Positions 1,795 to 31,064 of a stretch of 64,000 bases of DNA are shown here, one piece after another. This DNA comes from a virus. The notes beneath the pieces are model-generated. The model made no database searches and was not told the DNA's origin. It saw only the letters and a program-made list of their open reading frames with translations. The first letter of the stretch is position 1; each line of letters begins with the position of its first letter. Where the stretch lies: positions 62,001 through 126,000 of the IMG/VR virus record IMGVR_UViG_3300025012_000035, one strand, 5' to 3'. The position numbers and the translations under genes are program-made.

Positions 1795-2003
1795 GTAATG
1801 AATGGATTTCCACTATTGCATTTTTATCAGTCATGTTTACTATGTCAGTAATATCATTAATTTCATTAATAATATTTAAATTAAATAAAAATATGCAATT
1901 ATGGAAAATTATATTTATTTCATTATGTTTAGGTATTCCAATTAGTTTAGTAGTGATATTTGGTTTTCTTAGAATATTATATGAATATCAATATATTAAA
2001 TGA
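1791..2003 (+). CDS. small membrane protein, 70 aa, two TM helices
   Basis: The start chosen is the ATG overlapping the previous stop (ATGA); an ATG four codons earlier is possible. Two hydrophobic stretches, about residues 7-31 and 41-63, are linked by a basic loop (KLNKN), predicting a hairpin in the membrane. Nothing identifies a function; small two-helix proteins are common in phage accessory regions. Confidence 0.7.
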   Translation: MSNEWISTIAFLSVMFTMSVISLISLIIFKLNKNMQLWKIIFISLCLGIPISLVVIFGFLRILYEYQYIK

Positions 2004-2012
2004 TTTATTAAC

Positions 2013-2041
2013 TTGACAAATGTTAAATATAATTGTATAAT
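2013..2041 (+). promoter_or_regulatory. consensus sigma-A promoter
   Basis: TTGACA at 2013-2018 and TATAAT at 2036-2041 with a 17-base spacer: a perfect consensus. It sits in the gap before the gene at 2140 and probably drives it and the candidate replication gene. Confidence 0.85.
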
Positions 2042-2139
2042 ACAGATAGAGGTGAAAGGAGGTGATGTGTATGACATAGCAAAATATTAATAAAAATAAA
2101 GTATAATACTGATTGTAATTGATTGGAGGAAAATGATAC

Positions 2140-2379
2140 ATGAATACTGATAAAATCATTGATAGTGCAACAAATAATGTTAATTTTAAGAGGAACCCAT
2201 ATTACATATATGATTTAGTACAAGTAAATTGGATGTTAGAGCAAGGATGTATACCTTTACAAATAGGAAAAGGAGAAAAAGATGATGTATTTTTAAAATT
2301 TCCAAGAACGTCTGAAGTAGAGGAAATAGTTTATAAATGGAAATTAAAAAATAAAAGATTAAGTAAATATAATTTTTGA
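2140..2379 (+). CDS. hypothetical protein, 79 aa
   Basis: ATG 8 bases after GGAGG, downstream of a consensus promoter and about 100 bases of leader. The protein has a central hydrophobic/aromatic stretch (PYYIYDLVQVNWMLEQ) and a basic C-terminus. Not recognised. A small hairpin follows its stop. Confidence 0.75.
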   Translation: MNTDKIIDSATNNVNFKRNPYYIYDLVQVNWMLEQGCIPLQIGKGEKDDVFLKFPRTSEVEEIVYKWKLKNKRLSKYNF

Positions 2380-2381
2380 AT

Positions 2382-2408
2382 AAGAGCTTATAATTAGGCT
2401 CTTTTAAG
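2382..2408 (+). terminator. weak hairpin followed by T run
   Basis: AAGAGC at 2382-2387 pairs with GCTCTT at 2398-2403 and is followed by TTAA. The stem is only 6 bp, so it may be an inefficient intrinsic terminator between the 79-aa gene and the candidate replication gene. Confidence 0.45.
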
Positions 2409-2500
2409 TGTTTGATTAGATAATTGATAATTATTATGATAATGTTGATAAAATGATAATTAAATATAACTTGATAAAGATAAGGAGAATAAAATATTTA

Positions 2501-3643
2501 ATGATAACGAATGAATTAGAAATAGGAAGTACATATAAAAGTTTAAAAGATATGTGTGATATATTAGATTATGAATATAGTAAAAGTGCAAATAGTAGAA
2601 AAGCAACATTAAAGAAAATAGAATCAGAATACAAATTAGAAAGAAAAGGTAATAGTTATACTGTACTAGAAAGATATGAAATTAAATTAGAAATACTAGA
2701 TAAAAGAAAAGAAACAAAAGGTAATAATTCATCAAGAGGTAAATATGATACATTAATGGATAATTTAATTATTGATTGGTTATATAGATTTGATGAAATA
2801 GAGATTCATATTTCTTTTAATGAAATATTTACACAGGATAAAGAAAACAAAAACGATAATATACCAATATATTCTATTGATTATAAAGATTTATTGAATA
2901 ATGGATATGAAGAATTTGCAAAAGAATTATCTATTAGAAAAGATTTAGTTAATATGTATAGAGAAAAGATGTATTTAATAACTTCAAAATGTTTTGAAAC
3001 ATCATTAGAAAGATTACATAAACAAAATATATTAAATTGTAAAAAGAATATTATGGTTAAATATTATGCAGAAGAAAATGAAATTGCAGATAAACATTTA
3101 ATTGCTGAAATTAAACAAGCAGAAAAAGAAGTATATGAAAAAATGGATATTACTTCATTTCAAAGAGTAAATCCTAATATTAATAAGAAATTTAAAAGAG
3201 GAGTATGTAAGAAACTTGCAAGATATAAAATATCATCTTATTGGAATGTTTATTCTATTAAAATATTAGATGAAGATAAACTAATGGAAATAGAAAATAT
3301 AGATGAAATTAGAATTGAATTAGTAAATAGATTTGTTAATTCTATTAGAGATAGTTTATATAATAAAAAATATGATAATATCTATGATGATGTTGCGTTA
3401 GGTAAGAAAAGAGAAAATGAAAGATATAATCCATTTAAAGACTACACAAAGGAAATGACTGAATTATCAAATATACTATTTATAGATTATGATAAAAGTG
3501 ATATAGATGTTGAAGATGAAGAATGGGATAAACAGATAGAAAGAGAAGAAAAAGAAAAGAAGAAAAAGAAAAGAAGAAAAAGAAAAGAAGAAAAAGAAAA
3601 GAAGAAAAAGAAAAGAAGAAAGAAAACAAGCAAAGTTAGCTAA
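2501..3643 (+). CDS. candidate replication initiator-like protein, 380 aa, with Lys/Arg/Glu tail
   Basis: The frame opens at 2453, but AAGGAG at 2483-2488 favours the ATG at 2501 (long 12-base spacing). The N-terminus (residues 1-60) reads like a small DNA-binding region with many Lys and Ser; the middle is helical and acidic; the last 50 residues are almost only Lys, Arg and Glu, coded by a purine repeat of GAAAAAGAAAAGAA type units (about 3540-3640). Clostridial plasmid and phage proteins with this kind of N-terminus sit near origins, and here an AT-rich block with inverted GTACC repeats follows directly. The replication role is inferred from context; no catalytic motif is visible. The purine repeat is prone to slippage, so tail length may vary between isolates. 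Confidence 0.5.
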   Translation: MITNELEIGSTYKSLKDMCDILDYEYSKSANSRKATLKKIESEYKLERKGNSYTVLERYEIKLEILDKRKETKGNNSSRGKYDTLMDNLIIDWLYRFDEIEIHISFNEIFTQDKENKNDNIPIYSIDYKDLLNNGYEEFAKELSIRKDLVNMYREKMYLITSKCFETSLERLHKQNILNCKKNIMVKYYAEENEIADKHLIAEIKQAEKEVYEKMDITSFQRVNPNINKKFKRGVCKKLARYKISSYWNVYSIKILDEDKLMEIENIDEIRIELVNRFVNSIRDSLYNKKYDNIYDDVALGKKRENERYNPFKDYTKEMTELSNILFIDYDKSDIDVEDEEWDKQIEREEKEKKKKKRRKRKEEKEKKKKKRRKKTSKVS

Positions 3644-3737
3644 GAAGAAAAATAAATAATATTTTTTCTATTAATACACTTTGTCGCTTCCTTGCGGAAT
3701 CAAGAAATAATTTTTACTAGTTTTATTATATAGTAAA

Positions 3738-3905
3738 TAAAAATGTACCATTTCTAAATAGTGTAATACATATATAAAAATAAAAAATAAAATATAAAAT
3801 GTACCAATTTAAAAAAGTATAATATATAATGTATATGGTTTTAAATTGTACTTTTTAGAAATGGTACATTTTTAAAATGGTATAGATTGGTATATTTATT
3901 TACTA
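3738..3905. other. origin-like region: nested inverted repeats with GTACC iterons
   Basis: A 455-base gap without a long gene. 3738-3758 and 3854-3874 are a perfect 21-bp inverted repeat. Inside it, GTACCAATTTAAAA at about 3801 faces TTTTAAATTGTAC at 3839 with one bulged base. Outside, TAGTAAATAAAAATGTACC (about 3731) faces GGTATATTTATTTACTA (about 3889) imperfectly. GTACC or its complement therefore recurs in both directions in very AT-rich DNA. Position after the candidate replication gene suggests an origin or its copy-control operator. Confidence 0.45.
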
Positions 3906-4098
3906 TTTAATAAGAAAAAAGTAAAAATTCCACTTCTGAAGTTGAATGTAGCGATAGCGAAATGAAACGAAGCAGATTGTATTAATAAAAATAAAATATT
4001 ATCTTGCATTCGCCATCTATCCATGTTATAATAATTAAGGATTGTAAATATAATAAAAGTGTTAATATTAAATAATAAACAACAAGGAAGTGATTAAA

Positions 4099-4155
4099 AT
4101 GATTACAATATTTACACTTATTATGTTATTCTCAATATGTGGATTAATAAAGTAA
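4099..4155 (+). CDS. possible 18-aa hydrophobic peptide
   Basis: ATG 8 bases after AAGGAAG opens an 18-codon frame of mostly Ile, Leu, Phe and Met ending GLIK. It would form one short membrane helix, like leader or type I toxin peptides, but length alone cannot prove that it is made. It lies between the origin-like region and the next gene. Confidence 0.3.
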   Translation: MITIFTLIMLFSICGLIK

Positions 4156-4210
4156 CTAATAATAAAACTAATAACCAAACAAATAAACCACAGAAAGGAG
4201 TACATTAAAT

Positions 4211-4456
4211 ATGTTCGCAACAGATCAACAAGGTTGGGATTCATTTGATTTAACTAATGACTTATCAAATCTCTCAGACAAATCTAAACAATTACTAATA
4301 GAAATCATCAATTCAGCCATGACAGGTAAGCAATTATCACAAAGAACAAAGGAAATATTGTGTTATGCGTGTTATCACAGTACATTACCTATTGATGATG
4401 AGACAATTGGAGAATGGAGAGATATAATAGTAGATGGAATGTTAGATGAAATTTAA
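4211..4456 (+). CDS. hypothetical protein, 81 aa, acidic
   Basis: ATG after GAAAGGAG. Acidic, predicted all-helical, with a CYACYH segment near residue 58 and an acidic end. Not recognised. A sigma-A type promoter follows its stop, so it ends a transcription unit or the next unit can be expressed separately. Confidence 0.7.
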   Translation: MFATDQQGWDSFDLTNDLSNLSDKSKQLLIEIINSAMTGKQLSQRTKEILCYACYHSTLPIDDETIGEWRDIIVDGMLDEI

Positions 4457-4491
4457 AAGTAAAATAATTTAAAATATTAGTAAAGTTTTTC

Positions 4492-4520
4492 TTGACTTTG
4501 ATACAGAAGTGCAATATAAT
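4492..4520 (+). promoter_or_regulatory. sigma-A promoter
   Basis: TTGACT at 4492-4497, 17-base spacer, TATAAT at 4515-4520. It is followed by the genes at 4558, 4795 and 4990, which are closely spaced and probably one operon. Confidence 0.8.
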
Positions 4521-4557
4521 TGTATTATCAAGATAAATAAATCGGAGGTAATACATA

Positions 4558-4791
4558 ATGAAAATGATTGAAGTATCTTTAGAAGAGTATATAACTTTTA
4601 AGAATTGGTATTTTAAATATGCAAAATTAACTCAGAACATTAGAAAATTAAAAATTAAAGACAAAATAGGTACACTATTTATTATAGATAAAAAATCTAA
4701 TAAGGTAGTAAGTAGTGAAAGTCATGCAAATGGGAAATCTAAGTATAGAATTGATTTAATTTGGTATGAAATGTTTGGAGGAGGTGAATGA
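4558..4791 (+). CDS. hypothetical protein, 77 aa
   Basis: ATG after CGGAGG, first gene after the promoter at 4492. Basic protein with an N-terminal amphipathic helix and a beta-rich middle (KIGTLFIIDKKSNKVV). Its 3' end carries the GGAGGAGGTG that can serve the AbrB-type gene only four bases further on. Not recognised. Confidence 0.75.
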   Translation: MKMIEVSLEEYITFKNWYFKYAKLTQNIRKLKIKDKIGTLFIIDKKSNKVVSSESHANGKSKYRIDLIWYEMFGGGE

Positions 4792-4794
4792 AAC

Positions 4795-4959
4795 ATAGAT
4801 AATAAAGTAGTAAGAAAACTTGACGATTTATGTAGGATACATATTCCAAGAGAAATAAGAGATCGAGTAGGCGTAAACAGTATAACCGAAGGTGATGCAA
4901 TGTTAATAGAAGTTAATGAATATGGTCAGATAGTATTGACTAAGATTGATATTAAATAG
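4795..4959 (+). CDS. AbrB/SpoVT-type swapped-hairpin DNA-binding protein, 54 aa, starting at ATA
   Basis: After the initiator the protein reads DNKVVRKLDDLCRIHIPREI and then GDAM.IEVNEYGQIVLTK, the pattern of AbrB/SpoVT/MraZ N-terminal domains: strand, I-P-R-E/K helix turn, G-D, strand. Such proteins bind AT-rich DNA as dimers and repress transition-state and phage genes. No in-frame ATG or GTG lies before the conserved start; a TGA is two codons upstream. The only position matching family length is ATA at 4795, about 8 bases after GGAGGTG. Either AUA is used or the start has mutated and the gene is weakly expressed. Family assignment is good; the start is uncertain. Confidence 0.75.
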   Translation: MDNKVVRKLDDLCRIHIPREIRDRVGVNSITEGDAMLIEVNEYGQIVLTKIDIK

Positions 4960-4989
4960 TAAAATATAATATGAGAGGAGATTGATAAT

Positions 4990-5433
4990 ATGAAATTTAA
5001 AGGTGATATTATCATAACAGATCCATGTTATATCACAAAAGATGATACAAAGGATTGGGAATTATCTGGATACGGTGAGAATATGGAGAAGTTAGGTATT
5101 AAAACATATCTTACAAGAAATACAATTTATGGTGATTGGTCGTGTACTACTTTTAATAGTGATACACATGAACCAATAGGACAATTTTGTGCAGATGCAG
5201 GATTAGTAAGTGTGTTCTTATTAGATGAAGTATTAAAATATAATCCTGATTTTGATTATCATCTTAATAGACATTGGACAACAACATTGATTAAAGATTT
5301 TGATGGAGAAATTAAAATTAATATTGTTGGAGTAGAATATAAAAATGAAGAAGGATATATAGAAAATAATGAAGAAGTAAGAGTGATTGGTAAAGGTAAT
5401 ATTAATTTCTATACTACTCAAACAGGATTCTAA
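4990..5433 (+). CDS. conserved phage-type hypothetical protein, 147 aa
   Basis: ATG after GAGAGGAG. The protein begins with beta strands around ITDPCYI (about residues 9-15), has YGDWSC (about 49-54) and FCADAGLVSVFLLDE (about 65-80), and ends in a beta-rich, acidic C-terminus. The ITDPCY / GDWSC / ADAGLV pattern occurs in uncharacterised proteins of Gram-positive phages and plasmids; I know of no function. It closes the operon begun at 4492, and a strongly structured stretch follows. Confidence 0.75.
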   Translation: MKFKGDIIITDPCYITKDDTKDWELSGYGENMEKLGIKTYLTRNTIYGDWSCTTFNSDTHEPIGQFCADAGLVSVFLLDEVLKYNPDFDYHLNRHWTTTLIKDFDGEIKINIVGVEYKNEEGYIENNEEVRVIGKGNINFYTTQTGF

Positions 5434-5444
5434 TCTAAATCCAA

Positions 5445-5577
5445 CCTTGACATTTATAACTTGTTATTCGGGCAAATAGTAAATAAGTTATAAATGTCAG
5501 TAATATAAACACCATTAGCATTGCTTGGTAGATTGTCACGATCTATTCCTCTGGGATTTTTACTCCCAGAGGAAACT
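5445..5577 (+). ncRNA. structured intergenic region with two strong hairpins
   Basis: GACATTTATAACTT and AAGTTATAAATGTC form a perfect 14-bp stem with a 22-base loop (about 5450-5500). Further down, CCTCTGGGA and TCCCAGAGG form a 9-bp GC-rich stem around TTTTTAC (about 5551-5575), just before CTCCTCC, which is complementary to a Shine-Dalgarno sequence. A small stem TAGAT...ATCTA lies between. It could be a cis-acting leader of the gene at 5619, a terminator/antiterminator pair or a small RNA. It matches no riboswitch I know. Confidence 0.45.
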
Positions 5578-5618
5578 CCTCCTACATATTTTAAAATTTT
5601 ATAAAAAGGAGAATAACA

Positions 5619-29747: not shown

Positions 29748-30898
29748 GAATAACTGAAAAGCATATTTCTAAAATTCATCAATCTATTGGAATTTGTCGT
29801 TATTTATATAATACTTATTTGGCTAAAAATAAAGAATTATATGAATTATACAAAGAAGGTAAAATAGATAAAAAACAAGCATTTATGAGTGCATATGATT
29901 TTGATAAGTATATAAATAATGAAGTAAAAATTCTTGATGAATTTAAATGGATTAATAATTGTGGTTCTAAAGCAAGAAAGAAAGCAATTATAAATGCTGA
30001 GATGGCATATAAAAGATTCTTTAAATGGCAATCTAAGTTTCCTAAATTTAAGAAAAAGAAAAATCAAGATGTAAAAATTTACTTTCCTAAAAATAATAAA
30101 ACTGATTGGACTATTGAACGTCACAGAATTAAAATACCAAGTTTAGGGTTTGTTGAATTAAAAGAAAAAGGTTATATTCCTACGAATTCAAAAGTGGTTA
30201 GTGGTACTGTTTCAATGAAAGCAGGAAGATATTATGTTTCTGTATTATGTGATATTGTAGATCGTAATAATTATTCTGATAGTAAAAATGAAGGAATTGG
30301 TGTTGATTTAGGAATTAAAGATTTAGCGATTGTTAGTAATATTGACAAACCATTTGAAAATATTAATAAAAGTATAGTGATTAGAAAATTAAAAAAGAAA
30401 CTTAATAGATTACAAAGAAAAGTATCAAGAAAATATGAAACGAACAAAGATGGTAAGAAGTTTATTAAAACTAATAATATAATTAAATTGGAATCTCAAA
30501 TTAGAGTTATTCATCAAAAGATATCTAATATTCGTTTAAACTATATTCATAATATTACTAATACTCTAGTGAAATCCAAGCCAGAGTACATTACTATTGA
30601 AGATTTAAACGTAAGGGGCATGATGAAGAATAGGCATTTATCAAAATCAATTCAAGAACAATGTTTTTATGAATTTAGAAGACAATTAACTTATAAATGT
30701 TTATGGAATAATATTGAACTTAGAGTTGTTGATAGATTTTATCCTTCTAGTAAATTATGTTCTGAATGTGGTGGAATTAATAAAAATTTGAAACTTTCGG
30801 ATAGAGAATATATTTGTGTTGAATGTGGGGTTGTAATTGATCGTGATAAAAATTCTAGTATTAATTTAAAGAATGCTAAAGAATATAAAATTGCTTAA
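29720..30898 (+). CDS. tnpB: TnpB RNA-guided nuclease (IS607/IS605 type), 392 aa, apparent ATA start
   Basis: All features of active TnpB are present: RuvC D at about 196 (GVDLGIKDLAIV), E at about 294 (YITIEDLNVRGMM), a zinc finger CSECG...CVECG, and the last D at about 376 (DRDKNSSINL). Homology extends upstream of the first usual start (TTG 29819) through LKGFKTELRITEKHISKIHQ, to an ATA at 29720 where the family has ATG. So translation may start at AUA or the N-terminus is lost. TnpB cuts DNA guided by RNA from the element's 3' end. Its partner recombinase is dead, so it may survive by element retention or have been co-opted. Confidence 0.88.
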   Translation: MLKGFKTELRITEKHISKIHQSIGICRYLYNTYLAKNKELYELYKEGKIDKKQAFMSAYDFDKYINNEVKILDEFKWINNCGSKARKKAIINAEMAYKRFFKWQSKFPKFKKKKNQDVKIYFPKNNKTDWTIERHRIKIPSLGFVELKEKGYIPTNSKVVSGTVSMKAGRYYVSVLCDIVDRNNYSDSKNEGIGVDLGIKDLAIVSNIDKPFENINKSIVIRKLKKKLNRLQRKVSRKYETNKDGKKFIKTNNIIKLESQIRVIHQKISNIRLNYIHNITNTLVKSKPEYITIEDLNVRGMMKNRHLSKSIQEQCFYEFRRQLTYKCLWNNIELRVVDRFYPSSKLCSECGGINKNLKLSDREYICVECGVVIDRDKNSSINLKNAKEYKIA

Positions 30899-30899
30899 A

Positions 30900-31010
30900 G
30901 TAAATTATCAAATAAAAAGAAAGGTGAAATGCTACGAAGATATAATATGATAATTTACTATGTAGGGTGGGCTACATCCGAATTTACGCTTGCGGAGTGT
31001 TACATCAAAT
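30900..31010 (+). ncRNA. predicted omega-RNA region of first TnpB
   Basis: Known TnpB elements make a guide RNA from the 3' end of tnpB and the element right end. Here GTAAATTATCA (30900-30910) pairs with TGATAATTTAC (30948-30958), and then a GC-rich stretch with GTAGGGTGGGCTACATCCG and CGCTTGCGGAG follows. Scaffold and guide boundaries cannot be set without mapping the right end. Confidence 0.45.
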
Positions 31011-31064
31011 GTGAGTAGTATTAGTAATAATATAAAAACAGACACAATGAAACAAGAATTATCT

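Follow-up and report, generated by a model that had tools for sequence, protein, structure and literature searches.

Long-loop hairpins downstream of phrog_36702-family genes and a putative enlarged counterpart in a large virus record

Background

A cluster of nested inverted repeats lies downstream of a gene for a 380-aa protein in a 142,796-base (142.8-kb) virus record from IMG/VR. The initial annotation regarded this cluster as the best origin candidate in the 64-kb window analyzed here (record positions 62001-126000; GC content 24.8%, almost all genes plus-strand). Are these repeats an origin of replication, or do they have a different role that is tied to the preceding gene? A blastn search of the phage collection identifies no close relative of the record, the lone match being 318 bases long at 75%. 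A search for TraG-type ATPases returns no hits, and a search with phrog_2, presumably the terminase, is uninformative because its controls matched in unrelated genomes.

Structure of the nested repeats

The perfect 21-bp inverted repeat described in the initial annotation is present, with a left arm at 3738-3758 and a right arm at 3854-3874; at 90% complementarity, the arms reach 30 nt (3738-3767/3845-3874). Among the perfect inverted repeats in the window with arms up to 400 nt apart, it is the longest (the second longest is 17 bp), and a perfect inverted repeat of at least 21 bp appears in 1 of 200 random windows generated with a first-order Markov model. The enclosed bulged repeat (3796-3829/3839-3872, 82%, with the core at 3805-3821/3832-3848) and the third, flanking repeat (left arm 3723-3744, right arm 3892-3913, 91%) are found as well; however, GTACC is not shared by all the repeats as had been claimed, given that the flanking pair lacks this motif and the only GTACC/GGTAC sites are at 3745, 3801 and 3863. 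Outer arms (3659-3683/3973-3997, 80%) lengthen the structure to a rod-like nested hairpin of about 340 nt (3656-3997). Two left copies, 3740-3772 and 3796-3828, are repeated in direct orientation (82%) and have a single right arm as their partner; because of this competition, not all pairs can form simultaneously. Within the rod, an inner 77-nt hairpin (3796-3872; fold of -23.8 kcal/mol) consists of an 11-bp outer stem (AAAATGTACCA/TGGTACATTTT), symmetric mismatches and then an inner stem. The fold of 3640-4020 has a z of -7.2 as RNA and -7.3 as DNA, with 0 of 100 shuffles equally good in each case, and the segment 3651-3990 shows the lowest GC-corrected fold energy (z of -4.58) among 1,274 overlapping 340-nt segments.

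An Rfam search with positions 2000-5600 of the window yields no match at E up to 10, and the readings of the repeats as a tRNA or a known structured RNA were rejected. A MITE was rejected as well because the repeats are single-copy in the record: apart from their own arms and weak AT-rich matches, no second copy is detected. A relic insertion or a slipped-strand product, AT-rich, functionless and grown by repeat duplication, would fit the 14-nt tandem array in the adjacent gene tail (3538-3621) and the low-complexity AT arrays that Tandem Repeats Finder identifies inside the loop. Against this reading, which we consider very unlikely, stand the lack of a second copy in the record, the occurrence of the exact inverted-repeat pattern in none of the IMG/VR stretches and, as described below, the recurrence of a post-gene hairpin in distant relatives. 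A blastn search for close relatives of the hairpin finds none, and comparison of the hairpin DNA with 34 related records gives short AT-rich matches only (in 23 of the 34 at an E of 0.1 or lower, the best reaching 5.2e-4); we judge these to be noise.

No classic intrinsic terminator (a GC-containing stem, a loop of 3-8 nt and a T-run) is called in the interval 2300-4300 of the window. Just 3' of the repeats, a promoter-like TTGCAT-17-TATAAT (4003-4035, plus strand) is recognizable by eye; a consensus promoter scan does not return this site and reports fewer sites overall than in its shuffles.

The rep-like gene and the phrog_36702 family

The gene upstream of the repeats (2501-3643, plus strand) encodes a divergent member of phrog_36702, a family without a Pfam entry or an annotated function. 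When the ORF is read from 2453 (396 aa), the PHROG profile matches its residues 17-306 with an E of 2.4e-7; a genome search with phrog_36702 recovers the window protein with an E of 9.3e-9, and blastp aligns it to the members in loci L070 and L076 with an E of about 2e-6. Close relatives of this ORF are found neither by tblastn against phages and plasmids nor by a scan of IMG/VR peptides; it is missing from all 34 related records, 4 of which contain phrog_36702. Neither the window protein nor its relatives match a Pfam or NCBIfam family, and thus none of the curated Rep families (Rep_3 and others). None of the entries listed by literature searches describes the phrog_36702 protein family or its hairpin.

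The initial annotation called the gene rep-like on account of a DNA-binding-like protein with a Lys/Arg tail. The tail fails as evidence of DNA binding: most of it is encoded by a 14-nt tandem repeat (3538-3621, plus strand, 5.9 copies, Tandem Repeats Finder), and since 14 is not divisible by three, gain or loss of copies would be expected to shift the frame. The designation itself draws support from gene context. In the clostridial loci L111, L112 and L113, the family gene lies 3' of TubR- and TubZ-like genes, and a CHC2/Toprim primase gene follows the family gene in L112 and L114 (with no TubZ in L114 within the stretch examined). The TubZ-like protein of L081/L112 is similar to Pfam Tubulin (2e-7) and TubZ_C_3 (1.3e-5), with both matches below the curated cut-offs of Pfam. 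These neighborhoods make a rep-like gene, and a role of the family in replication or maintenance, plausible.

Structural comparisons are generic. The AlphaFold2 model of the homolog from Geobacillus virus E3 (pLDDT 81) contains winged-helix elements, and the window protein gives a weak model (pLDDT 63). For the winged-helix core of the E3 homolog, a Rep-DNA complex (8ac8_A) is a weak match among solved structures: its Z of 6.1 is tied with those of many unrelated winged helices, and the other matches are likewise generic winged helices. A Foldseek search of the PDB with this model gives nothing below E 0.001, and no PDB sequence is matched by the phrog_36702 profile. In BFVD, ten phage proteins fall below 0.001, of which eight are labeled uncharacterized, one is nameless and one is labeled thymidylate kinase.

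Family members are found in Geobacillus virus E3, next to aimR/aimP in an SPbeta-like region from Bacillus velezensis, in IMG/VR contigs, in Bacillota genomes and in Thomasclavelia phage TR-TP2. The distribution is sparse: of 391 genomes from one class, 3 carry a member, and of 397 from one family, 7 do, with the centre genome counted in both cases. A genome scan yielded 10 loci, after a first one that yielded none. The record itself encodes a second, more typical copy at 25.2-26.4 kb, followed by its own hairpin and then by roughly 1.1 kb with little or no coding sequence (to 27.6 kb). In this copy (L008, 1208-1289), no ATG, GTG or TTG precedes the conserved N-terminus; an ATT located at a normal distance after AGGAGG is a possible rare start codon. 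Separately, the otherwise intact family gene of L011 carries an in-frame TAA (3094-3096), and in Thomasclavelia phage TR-TP2 (L119, 2667-5127), 2.46 kb without annotated genes are located 1.9 kb upstream of the family gene.

A long-loop hairpin often follows phrog_36702 genes

Family genes are often followed by a stem-loop of 52-90 nt with a long interior that starts 0-22 nt past the stop codon. Using a score of at least 11.5, a loop of 20-60 nt and a distance of no more than 40 nt from the stop codon, with the score threshold fixed after a first scoring, such a hairpin is detected after 16 of 25 family genes (and thus not after the other 9) compared to 3 of 128 control genes from other genomes. 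The controls yield 1 of 53 when the downstream gap is at least 150 nt, as it is after 22 of the 25 family genes, and 8 of 107 in the record that contains the window. The Fisher p-values (8.5e-13 and 1.7e-9) overstate independence because the family members are related. The pattern was first noted in eight loci, and among those inspected later, 10 of 17 are positive. The 25 genes exclude L079 (protein identical to L015), L074 (a twin of L073), L112 (same as L081), L070 and L072 (from the genomes of L014 and L011, respectively) and L084, L085 and L109, whose ORFs are broken or cut; they include L117 and L119, which match the family only over a short N-terminal stretch and have no hairpin. This association is a new observation.

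Stems of short-loop terminators show the opposite trend, occurring after 2 of the 25 family genes compared to 21 of the 128 controls. Given that such terminators are common in the controls but rare in the family, a plain terminator fails to explain the long loop. The family hairpins are followed by a modest T-run, with 4-10 T in 12 nt, and several arms run from an A-tract at one end to a T-tract at the other, as do the arms of bidirectional terminators. None of the hairpins from the 13 loci searched matches Rfam.

Pairing in these hairpins is conserved despite the divergence of the arms. Within members, 8.6 of 9 bp are paired, compared to 3.3 of 9 when arms are swapped between members, and the 5' arms are only 37% identical. 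In L014/L070 and L071, the proteins are 80% identical and the flanks are similar but the hairpin arms differ, a pattern that fits a structural function better than binding to a specific sequence. The repeats in the window might alternatively be binding sites for the phrog_36702 protein, acting as an operator or in incompatibility-type control. Copies of ATGTACCA(T/A)TT at 3740 and 3796 on the plus strand and at 3872 on the minus strand, i.e. two direct copies and one inverted, with weaker, TGGTA-containing copies at 3878 and 3888, are compatible with such sites, and the Metabacillus homolog L077 is followed by similar GTACCATTT arms. However, the motif is not conserved across the family, TACCA and TGGTA are common in the AT-rich window (54 and 91 sites, respectively), and binding sites are typically located upstream of the gene under their control, so that this reading appears quite improbable.

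The window gene itself is scored as a miss (7.2) because the hairpin with the family architecture (3796-3872) begins 153 nt past the stop codon. This unit folds like the family hairpins, and its tie to the family accordingly rests on architecture; we infer that the two are homologous.

Is the window hairpin an origin?

The available evidence does not support the repeats as the best origin candidate. In the window, the GC skew stays above zero in each of the 64 1-kb bins and does not inflect near 3.7 kb; in the stretches of the record that were sampled, both skew and gene strand switch at 9.75-10.0 kb, about 55 kb away from the repeats (65.7 kb in record coordinates). The repeats contain no cluster of DnaA-box-like sites: 27 such sites are found in the window compared to 29.8 expected, with none in 3656-3997. 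In place of an iteron array of at least three direct repeats, the locus has two direct copies (82%) and an inverted one. Moreover, a more typical family gene with its hairpin is present at 25.2-27.6 kb of the same record. Thus, an origin at 3.7 kb is possible but unsupported, and the recurrence of such elements downstream of family genes accounts better for the hairpin. The switch is located between genes for a tyrosine recombinase and a small ribbon-helix-helix-like protein (assigned by eye), and is adjoined by three GTCATACA repeats upstream of the latter gene (L118, 4700-5290; about 9.7-10.3 kb of the record). This region is a candidate partition site or origin, although the skew switch may mirror gene orientation alone.

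A more specific version of the replication hypothesis holds that the hairpin is a cis site (an origin or a single-strand initiation site) for a plasmid-type initiator of the phrog_36702 family that reads it largely by shape. Compatible with such a site are the position of the family gene after TubR- and TubZ-like genes in L111, L112 and L113 and before a primase gene in L112 and L114, the winged-helix core of the E3 homolog with its weak, tied alignment to 8ac8_A, and the loop length and position that differ from ordinary terminators in the same genomes. The constant sign of the skew around the repeats and the location of the skew switch, the lack of an excess of DnaA-box-like sites, the absence of TubZ from the record, the lack of arm conservation among close homologs and the lack of matches to Rep families argue against it, which makes this alternative rather unlikely. 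Still broader, and improbable in our assessment, is the possibility that phages and plasmid-prophages share a replicon cassette composed of two parts, the phrog_36702 gene and its 3' hairpin, in which an undescribed initiator would act with a shape-read cis hairpin whose arms change freely while preserving pairing.

Functional interpretation and comparison with known systems

Our tentatively favored explanation, which falls somewhat short of an even chance, is that the rep-like gene carries an enlarged 3' hairpin in the form of the nested repeats, with a role that most likely resembles that of a terminator. Under this scenario, the unit 3796-3872 would correspond to the family hairpin and would have been enlarged by the second copy of the left arm and the flanking arms. 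The element would act mainly at the transcript end, where, with its long loop and roughly symmetric shape, it would serve as a terminator or 3' stabilizer and insulate the rep-like gene from the next operon.

The nearest comparisons include phrog_36702 proteins such as GP200 (E3_0200) of Geobacillus virus E3, which belong to the same protein family and have a hairpin directly past the stop codon; in alignments, the window protein is only about 20% identical, and it differs by the extra Lys/Arg tail and by a larger hairpin located 153 nt downstream. Intrinsic (rho-independent) terminators resemble the family hairpins in having a stem past the gene end and, in several relatives, A-tract/T-tract flanks, but their loops are 3-8 nt long whereas the family hairpins have an interior of 20-60 nt with inner stems, and none is called at the window locus. 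Some plasmid rep genes, namely those of Inc18-type RepE and ColE2-type, have the origin just downstream. The likeness to these systems is one of position and context, i.e. a cis element after a rep-like gene and relatives near partition and primase genes; the skew gives no support. Plasmid prophages with TubRZ, among them Clostridium phage c-st (PMC8026635), share with some phrog_36702 relatives the phage-like plasmid setting and TubRZ partition, but the record has no TubZ.

The part of these findings most worth following is the association of the phrog_36702 family with a long-loop hairpin. If it holds, temperate phages and plasmids have an unannotated protein family that brings along its own structured 3' element, which would provide a first handle on the replication or maintenance genes of large, poorly annotated phage-plasmids. 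A cis site conserved in pairing but not in sequence would also be tractable for separating terminators, RNA regulators and replication sites.

Other structured elements

Several additional structured elements were observed in the window and next to family genes. Shortly 3' of a TnpB-like gene (29819-30898), the window contains a RAGATH-18 RNA (30989-31058; Rfam RF03064, E 5e-12), and an 18-nt inverted repeat (5448-5499; 94%, with a loop of 16 nt) overlaps a promoter-like TTGACA. A Pistol ribozyme is located 3' of the E3-like family gene in L071 (3427-3498). In the SPbeta-like prophages L015 (5080-5310), L078 and L080, a second structured stretch, GGGGGATG...CATCCCCC, separates the family hairpin from a large phrog_8308 gene.
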